From assembly GCA_003118195.1 (NCBI GenBank), contig BEXV01000071.1, positions 219,823-283,822 of the forward strand: a stretch of 64,000 nucleotides of DNA, read 5' to 3'. The translations under genes and the position numbers were made by a program. Positions within the stretch are counted from its first letter, which is position 1, and every line of letters starts with the position of its first letter. Positions 9,801 through 12,800 of this stretch are shown here, piece by piece. Below the pieces are notes generated by a model. The model did no database searches. It worked only from the letters and a program-made list of their open reading frames with translations, and was not told the origin of the DNA. Source of the DNA: Hemicentrotus pulcherrimus. Its lineage: Eukaryota; Echinodermata; Echinoidea; Camarodonta; Strongylocentrotidae.

Positions 9801-12800
9801 CTTGAATGTTGACTCCTTTCCTCTATCGTATTGTACCATTGTCTTCCATCTTCATCCCCCCCCCCATGTTGAACTAATCCTATTTACCTTTCATTTTTGA
9901 GCAAAAACTTGCCTTCCCTTTATACCGGTTATTTCTGTGTGATTGTAATGGGTCCCCTATCTTTGTGTCTACTTACTCATCATAAAAAAATCCTCAATCA
10001 TAACACTTTCATTTCATACTCCATATCACTCTGGCATCAGACCATGTCACTTCCAGTTGTTGTCGTTTCCCATGGCAACCAGGAATGTAATGCTCTTGCC
10101 ACTATTCTCTGGGATAACGCATTTGGTGAATCAGTAAGTTCAGGGGAATGACCTTGATGGACCTGTACACATGTGACCTTGTGAATGACCTTGTGAATGT
10201 GACCTTGTCAATGCTTGTAGTAGATGTTTGTGGATCAAAAGTGTTATGTGATGTCATCTTGCATGTGGGTTTCAGTCTTCATTATATGTTTCCAATTACC
10301 TTTTGTTTTTATCATCCATTTAGTGGAGCAGCCTACCATTTCTCTTTCATTTGCTTGTATCATTCAGTATTGGATATTGAAATGCCAGACATATAATATA
10401 CAATCTATTTTAGCCCCCCATTTTATTTCCCAATTAATGTTGGGGTCTGAGAAAATAAGAGGAAATCTGCATTTATTATTGAGTGAATGCAGCATAATCT
10501 ACTTAATGTCTTTAAATTGTATATTATCAAGCTTGCCTCATACATTTTTTTTTCTTCACTGGCTTGCAAAAGTATGCTCTGTTATCTCCAACTTTTTGTA
10601 AGTGTGTGGCATTTCAAAATCCAATTCTGAAGCGTTTTTTGAATATTCTTTGTATCCACAGAATTTTCCAAACCTTTCAACTACTCGGTCAGGTTTATTT
10701 TCTACTTGCAGTTTTGCATGGATGCATGGTGGTTTTATTTGCAGTTTCACCTTTCCATTATTTATTTCTCTTCATTCCTGTATTCTTATATCTTCTTCTT
10801 GTCCATTTTGGGAACACATGAGTATGGATAGCTTTATGCGTAAACACCTCTACTAACCCATTCAGTAACAAGTCAAGAAATTCCACCCCAATTGGACACG
10901 TTTCGTTGCCATTGCATGGAGTCCTACATGTATGTCAATCAGCTTAATTCTATAACCATGAAACATAACGTATCTGTAAAGTGAGTTTTGTGAGACTGAC
11001 TTCAGTCTAATGCAAACATTGAGGAACAGGTTCTGCCTCGTGTTCCTTGCATGATGTTTATTTTAACACTTTGTTGTCACTTGCCATCCCCCCTTACCCT
11101 CCAATTCATCCTATGTGCCTTTCCAAACGACCACCACCATCTACGCTGCTAATTGTGTCGCTATGGCAACCGTATCATCTGCGTGCATGATCAGACTATG
11201 TCACTGCCCGTGGTTGTCATAGTTCATGGAAACCAGGAGTCAAATGCGCTTGCCACAGTTTTGTGGGACAATGCGTTTGCCAGCTCTGTAAGTATCAAGC
11301 TAAGATCAAGTCATTTTTCTTCTTCCCCAATGTTTAGAGACAAACAGGAAATGCAGATCTTAAAATATTCATAGAATTATTGAACCAAATAAAGTTTGTT
11401 ATGCCTATGCCCTCCAAAGATAATGCAAGAGGCATTGTTCTGTCTTCCAACAAAGGAAATGAACACCTGGTTTAAAAGAAATTAAATTACAACATGAATG
11501 CTTTCTGTATTCATGTGACAACAAATTAGATTAGATGAAGGCATTTCAACAAGTTTAAAGCCATTCATTAGCAATTTAGCAGCAAGCTCTGAAATATTGT
11601 TGCATGATGCTGGTTATGTGAAATAATATTCACATGTTTATTAACTACATGTATGCATGCTCTATTTTCTAATAATTGTGAATAAACCAATAATGAATAA
11701 ACCGAAATGGTATGAAAGAGGTAAGTTCAATGTACCATGTTTCTCAGTCTTTCTTTTAAATCGTGTCAGTCAAATTTTTGCCCTTATTTTGTTGTTTAAC
11801 TGTCCTTTGTTTGGTTGAGTGATATCTAATACAAAATGCAGATTTCTCTAAGTTTTAGAAATCATGACCTGAAAAGTAACATTTATTAAATCTAAGTTAC
11901 ATTCGTAATTGGTATCAGTAATAGCTGCAGCGTATTTTGCTGCACTGTACATTAATTTCTGCAGAGAAATCATATTCTTGCAAATGCTGTATATGTTCAT
12001 CCAATTTGTGCTATTCAAAGACCTATATTATTGTTATTTTCCCCTTAAATTTTGTTCTTGTCCTTAATTTTTTGTTTAATTGTAAAACCAGAACATTTTG
12101 CATGTATGAAACTCACAAAAACTCCAAGTGGTTCAGTTTTTCATAGATATTATGCCACAGAATTTAACCAAGACATTACAATGAATGTTAACAATTATTC
12201 CTTAAAAATCAGCATTGTTAAAATTCGAAAAAGACTTTGGTTTACAGCAATTTGATGCCTCTGAAATGATTGTTTAAATTGGATTGCATGAAATCAATGT
12301 TTTCTGTCTACTTATTATTTAGGGACGAGTCCCTTTTGTGGTACCCGATGGTGTTCCCTTAGCAGACATGGGCCGGGCCCTCAACTCGAAGTTTATGCTG
12401 GCAAACGGGCGTAGCCTGAGTGACGCTAATCTGCTCTATCTGGCACAGAAAGCTTTTAGTCGTAAGTGTTATATGGGATTCCTGAGACTTGAGCTTCGTT
12501 CACCAAAGTTTTTTCTTTCCCACACCACATATCTTGGCAATTGAATGGATATCTTGTGAAATTAAGAGGAAGAAATAGAAATTCAAATTTTGGAAGTATA
12601 ACAGATGTCATATCATGCGCATAAATTCCATCATTTAAAACCTTGAAGAAATATGAAAGCCGTCTCCGTAAATAACGATGCAGTAAGCTATTTTTAATCA
12701 AATTTGTGGTGAAGTTGGAGAGGTATTCCTGCCTCCCTTTTTTGTTATGTTTTTCTTCTCGCTGACTCAGATGTTCCTACTTAAACGTTATACAGTGGAA

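Follow-up and report, generated by a model that had tools for sequence, protein, structure and literature searches.

A sea urchin STAT gene with two alternative exons for part of its DNA-binding domain, which probably give two proteins that touch DNA differently

The window analysed here, a 64-kb stretch of DNA, contains a STAT gene in which the same piece of the DNA-binding domain is encoded twice, by two neighbouring exons (A and B). The locus raises the question of whether these exons are used as alternatives and, if so, whether the choice between them changes the way in which the protein reads DNA, a matter that bears on how STAT site preference is encoded, a standing question in the field. 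An earlier note on this DNA had proposed a duplicated exon, probably spliced in a mutually exclusive way, coding for the DNA-contacting segment. The duplication was borne out and, as judged from sequence, the gene probably yields two STAT proteins that differ in their contact with DNA.

Exons were read from the sequence and then checked against the STAT5B record of S. purpuratus (P0004), to which the spliced model is 98% identical. Coordinates are positions in the window, and the gene lies on the plus strand. STAT exons within the window span 752 to 23038, the first 5' exons lying beyond it:

752..6131, plus strand: nine upstream coding exons (coiled coil and start of the DNA-binding domain), from sequence reading, Pfam and comparison with P0004
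6789..6869, plus strand: constitutive exon before A/B (FVTEEKF...VFQVR), end phase 0
10041..10133, plus strand: alternative exon A, 31 codons, phase 0/0, echinoderm-specific version
11195..11287, plus strand: alternative exon B, 31 codons, phase 0/0, version nearest to that of other animals
12323..12461, plus strand: constitutive exon after A/B, start phase 0
12930..15684, plus strand: downstream exons for the linker, the SH2 domain and the candidate tail tyrosine (DGGYVPTS)
17093..17236, plus strand: C-terminal coding exon
22945..23038, plus strand: last coding exon including the stop, matching the S. purpuratus record

With either exon A or exon B in place, PF01017, PF02864, PF21354 and PF00017 scored above cut-off, and the order of domains in the product is STAT coiled-coil, DNA-binding, linker and SH2. 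The N-terminal domain PF02865 is present in the near-identical record P0004, residues 1-151 of which had no match in the window or in the genome search, which scores best candidates only. Among solved structures, STAT5B and STAT5A are nearest to the product in sequence, and the product is closer to STAT5/STAT6 than to STAT1-4. C-terminal of the SH2 domain, DGGYVPTS holds a candidate tail tyrosine (Y703 of P0004), nearly invariant across 35 proteins. A sea urchin STAT protein searched against the 414-Mb assembly gave 18 exon matches, and this protein query found no further copies of A or B among the best candidates scored. Since all 18 matches lie at a single locus, we see one STAT gene and no extra A/B copy in the genome, within the limits of a best-candidate search; this count comes from the protein query, a Pfam-model search having matched neither the genome nor the controls.

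Other details of the region were also recorded. A run of N at about 20960-21139 lies in the last long intron of the gene, and a tandem acceptor (AAGCAG, 12925-12929) stands ahead of the exon at 12930; use of its upstream AG gives ...FSPDHNVG, like S. purpuratus P0004, and use of its downstream AG gives ...FSHHNVG, like Lytechinus and Diadema. At 22945-23160, one frame gives the P0004-type end and another resembles the C-termini of Lytechinus (67% identity) and Diadema (51%), so that a single last exon is possibly read in two frames to yield two C-termini. Further downstream, an open stretch on the plus strand (29781-30053) gave a weak match to PF00474 (E 0.0021; 17.5 bits, below the cut-off of 22.8), and this sodium:solute symporter-like stretch may be the opening exon of the gene that follows.

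The exon pair had been described in the earlier note as two 93-nt exons in phase 0/0, each with AG before it and GTAAGT after it; this description proved exact. With either one spliced in, the reading frame runs on from the exon that ends at 6869 to the one that starts at 12323. They are neighbouring, similar, of equal length (93/93 nt) and of equal phase, as is expected of tandem exons. Recounting returned the same identity as before (25 of 31 residues, 66 of 93 bases) and confirmed the 13 synonymous codon differences, the other codons being 12 identical and 6 non-synonymous. Between A and B, dN was 0.16 (NG86) or 0.18 (YN00), and dS was 4.0 (NG86) or 1.5 (YN00), which is saturated. The 60-nt flanks of the two exons are unlike (30% and 37% identity, ungapped). 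Because the flanks are dissimilar and the silent sites saturated, the duplication is neither recent nor made by the assembly, and a recent duplication or a haplotype or assembly artefact was ruled out. In alignment, both exons fall on one and the same 31-residue piece of STAT5/STAT6; the 28-residue A segment of the window is identical to that of a crinoid, and the 28-residue B segment is identical to those of a crinoid and a brittle star. This common alignment, together with cores identical in crinoid and brittle star, places the pair far beyond chance.

The distribution of both versions was determined in a protein sample made up of the best 120 of 1701 matches (7990 candidates sharing most words having been scored) and the best 120 of 166, clustered at 90% identity, by which the partner isoform of most species is hidden. 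Scanning of 226 records for the motif yielded 217 scored segments and 9 off-pattern ones; the scored segments carried IVHGSQ (99), IVHGNQ (89), TVHGNQ (19), VSHGNQ (9) or VVHGNQ (1). The nine VSHGNQ (A-type) segments are exon A of the window and eight database proteins, all echinoderm and from six species, and among the 217 segments the motif was found in no other named animal. These species are the sea urchins S. purpuratus, Lytechinus pictus and Diadema setosum, the crinoid Anneissia japonica, the sea cucumber Apostichopus japonicus (two records) and the sea star Patiria miniata (two records), thus covering four echinoderm classes. Four further single-exon readings carry the A motif (P0227, P0228, P0229 and P0231), the intron flank of P0228 matching the window's own. 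Absence of the second copy from every related genome, which the earlier note had named as telling against its reading, is thus not what was found. The B type (IVHGNQ) covers five echinoderm classes, the window being counted as sea urchin B, with records from Amphiura (brittle star), Antedon (crinoid), Apostichopus, Patiria, and the sea stars Acanthaster and Asterias, in addition to P0010, from a near relative of Apostichopus.

Both versions were found within the same species in two cases. In Patiria, isoforms X1 and X3 are A (P0016 and P0017) and isoform X2 is B (P0014), and for all three the listing gives a contig of 48,504,769 bases. In Apostichopus, P0011 is B and P0012 and P0013 are A, on different contigs. 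Among the 229 fetched database proteins (232 with three window pieces), which include six single-exon readings unable to show two copies, 220 contained one copy of the motif, none contained two, and 9 gave no match. No record in the sample was a B-type sea urchin protein, all three sea urchin records being A, and the sample held no A-type record for Amphiura, Antedon, Acanthaster or Asterias, the 90% clusters hiding such partners. Vertebrate records in the sample carry one version of the segment. Mutually exclusive use, which the earlier note had considered probable, accordingly stands at the level of annotation only, with one version per annotated protein and both versions in Patiria and Apostichopus. 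A third version, TVHGNQEC, which differs at the first of the two variable positions, was noticed in the STATs of Lingula, Lineus, Helobdella and Tubulanus (P0074, P0088, P0124 and P0126). Since the segment limits of two single-exon readings of this type (P0230 and P0232) fall at the same places as those of A and B, the limits of the A/B exon look ancestral.

Constraint was compared in six hand-picked species per type, P0010, P0012 and P0016 being omitted because they were near-duplicates or shorter versions. The six A-type species, from four classes, share one 26-residue A core (100% identity), while their remaining DNA-binding region averages 83% identity, and the 26-residue B core averages 94.6% in the six B-type species; the two cores are 82.7% identical to each other. 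No other stretch of the protein is kept as strictly as the A version, whose core is the sole fully invariant 26-column window among 710 in the A-type alignment; in the B-type alignment none of 605 such windows was fully invariant. The claim that both copies have long been kept under selection agrees with the saturated silent sites, the low dN and the conservation of both versions across echinoderms. In a tree of the exon, A lies to one side of a branch with values of 85/82, which is not a starred fork; the exon is too short for resolution, and the diagnostic residues were weighed instead. Crinoids are the sister group of the other living echinoderm classes. Since the A and B segments of the window equal those of crinoids, the duplication should be older than the split of the living echinoderms.

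Half-site spacing preference is set in STAT6 by His415. In the exon pair, the His common to A and B aligns with this residue, and the Gly-Asn-Gln-Glu that follows it is also unchanged between them. The earlier note had placed differences next to the DNA contact: the two residues before the His do differ (VS in A, IV in B), but the contact His itself is identical. Within the core, 22 of 26 residues are the same and two of the four changes are conservative (V/I). By alignment, A has Ser at the position of STAT3 Ser465, where B has Val. In a structure model of the A isoform, the exon A product is predicted to form a strand (469-472), a turn (473-474) and a helix (475-491), and alignment and model together upheld the assignment of the exon to the DNA-contacting segment. 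In STAT6, H415 hydrogen-bonds a guanine (PMC11339341, excerpt), and in STAT3, S465A is listed with the mutants that lose SIE-dependent regulation, as is the deletion of V463 (PMC4605325, excerpt); passages on residues 465/466 were looked for in PMC6032208 and not found. From these positions we infer that A and B would differ in DNA binding-site preference or affinity.

As for how the choice between exons might be controlled, the acceptors of A and B stand apart from the others of the gene by the stretches that precede them:

9902..10038, plus strand: AG-free zone of 137 nt ahead of the exon A acceptor
11030..11192, plus strand: AG-free zone of 163 nt ahead of the exon B acceptor

Such zones exceed 100 nt at only these two of the 20 acceptors in the gene, the other 18 having 73 nt or less, and the chance that the two longest of 20 fall on A and B is 1 in 190. 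Of the 3323 AG-to-AG gaps in the window as a whole, 13 are 130 or longer. Ahead of exon B, a pyrimidine-rich stretch lies far from the acceptor, and the tract close to the AG is weak. In human, introns with an AG-free zone of at least 100 nt number 838 of 67,334, and exons behind long zones are enriched for alternative splicing, some of them being mutually exclusive (PMC1431707, excerpt). The long zones at A and B point to putative distant branch points with regulators bound between, and so to regulated splicing. Simple steric exclusion is disfavoured because the intron between A and B, of 1061 nt, is too long. A frameshift removing transcripts with both exons was ruled out, since 186 nt preserve the frame, as does skipping of both, and incompatibility of splice-site classes was ruled out by the listed donors (GT) and acceptors (AG). 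Neither frame nor splice-site class enforces the exclusivity of A and B. Mechanism terms were looked for in PMC9013439 and not found.

Two sequence features around exon A were also recorded. An 18-nt perfect inverted repeat (8119-8136 with 10906-10923) flanks exon A on both sides; this length was reached in 1 of 200 shuffles of the region, and such a repeat could favour skipping of exon A. The 8-mer GTTGCCAT is present on the plus strand of the 64 kb at a single place, 10905, and its complement at two, one inside exon A (10072) and one ahead of exon B (11163). Competing RNA pairing was nevertheless set aside as a weak lead, the copy in exon A being dictated by the His-Gly-Asn codons and the search being post hoc.

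The observations to be explained are two intact exons with their phase and splice sites, one copy per protein record, and strong conservation of each version. We consider it fairly likely that they reflect an old tandem duplication and one-or-other splicing, giving two STAT proteins with different DNA reading. An ancestral 93-nt exon, coding for the strand, turn and long helix that close the STAT DNA-binding domain, would have undergone tandem duplication before the living classes of echinoderms diverged. Splicing would then take either A or B, the choice in living tissue being exclusive and regulated, probably through distant branch points. The two resulting STAT5-type proteins would share their dimerisation, SH2 and tail parts and differ in surface at the turn that leads into the DNA-contacting His: B would retain the general form I-V-H, and A would have V-S-H, its Ser falling at the position of STAT3 Ser465. 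The presumed effect is an altered site preference or affinity, so that one gene might serve two target sets. A more tentative extension, possible but somewhat doubtful, is that B reads DNA in the manner of STAT5/6, A reads other sites (differing in half-site spacing or flanks) and mixed dimers a third kind, with a tissue- or infection-regulated choice of distant-branch-point exons taking the place of the vertebrate gene duplication.

Other explanations place the difference elsewhere. Alternative splicing might be real and the DNA preference the same, with A and B differing in regulation (through modification of Ser at position 10 or of Cys at position 16), stability or partner binding. The His aligned with STAT6 H415 and the Gly-Asn-Gln-Glu after it, which do not change, are compatible with this, as are the conservative V/I changes; but the Val-to-Ser change sits in the turn beside the contact His, and the STAT3 S465A phenotype (PMC4605325, excerpt) speaks against it. 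We regard this explanation as unlikely, though worth keeping in sight. The same STAT3 mutants, S465A and the V463 deletion, which abolish SIE-dependent regulation (PMC4605325, excerpt), could be read as favouring an isoform A that is a weakened or dominant-negative DNA binder, damping isoform B and lacking targets of its own. This appears improbable, given that the A core does not vary among six species and is under tighter constraint than B, and that Ser here is the normal STAT3 residue and no loss.

The existence of two exclusive forms can be questioned as well. Inclusion of A and B together in the normal transcript, or a choice that is non-exclusive, would keep the reading frame, and the tandem exon duplication of COE/EBF is one of mandatory inclusion (PMC2394523, excerpt). 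Against it, two copies were never seen in the database proteins (0/229, six of them being uninformative single-exon readings), and 31 extra residues would disrupt the strand-turn-helix; we give it very little chance. That one copy is decaying, non-functional or an assembly artefact is scarcely credible, as each has an open frame and intact splice sites, their flanks differ and their silent sites are saturated, and 28-residue stretches of both recur exactly in proteins of other echinoderm classes. Old duplication with one-or-other use of A and B, probably affecting DNA reading, is thus the explanation that we retain.

A pair of this kind would show how a pathway of few genes can broaden its output. 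Both STAT isoforms already sit in public protein records, and the A and B proteins, about six residues apart, form a readily testable pair, while the retention of two versions in at least four echinoderm classes amounts to a natural experiment on the role of these residues. The literature search, in open-licence papers, surfaced no earlier report of the STAT A/B exon pair. The text of a 2026 metazoan pathway survey that includes echinoderms contains neither 'exon' nor 'isoform' (PMC13203501), and in a review on signalling and splicing, exons of the mutually exclusive kind come up as a general type only (PMC10167241, excerpt).

The earlier note knew of no STAT that swaps part of its DNA-reading surface by splicing. 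A swap within a DNA-binding domain is already known from FOXP1, and the present one would be, as far as we have found, the first in STATs. Exons 18/18b of FOXP1 are, as is proposed for A and B, mutually exclusive, exchange part of the DNA-binding domain and keep the frame; FOXP1 is, however, a forkhead protein, and its altered motifs were measured by protein-binding microarray, whereas for STAT A/B they are inferred (PMC11701043, excerpt). COE/EBF likewise underwent an old lineage-specific tandem exon duplication in a transcription factor, but there the copy lies in the HLH part and both exons are included, whereas the STAT gene would use one or the other (PMC2394523, excerpt). Distant-branch-point exons share with A and B the AG-free zones of more than 100 nt and the tendency to alternative splicing; steric exclusion by a branch point close to the upstream exon does not fit the 1061-nt STAT intron, and the branch points here are putative (PMC1431707, excerpt). 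Vertebrate STAT5A/STAT5B and STAT6 belong to the same family and have the same segment, STAT6 also with HGNQ, but their records in the sample hold one version of the segment, unlike the echinoderm pair. The known splice forms of mammalian STATs (alpha/beta) change the C-terminus. Target choice among vertebrate STATs is spread over several genes, and one echinoderm gene retains two DNA-reading segments.
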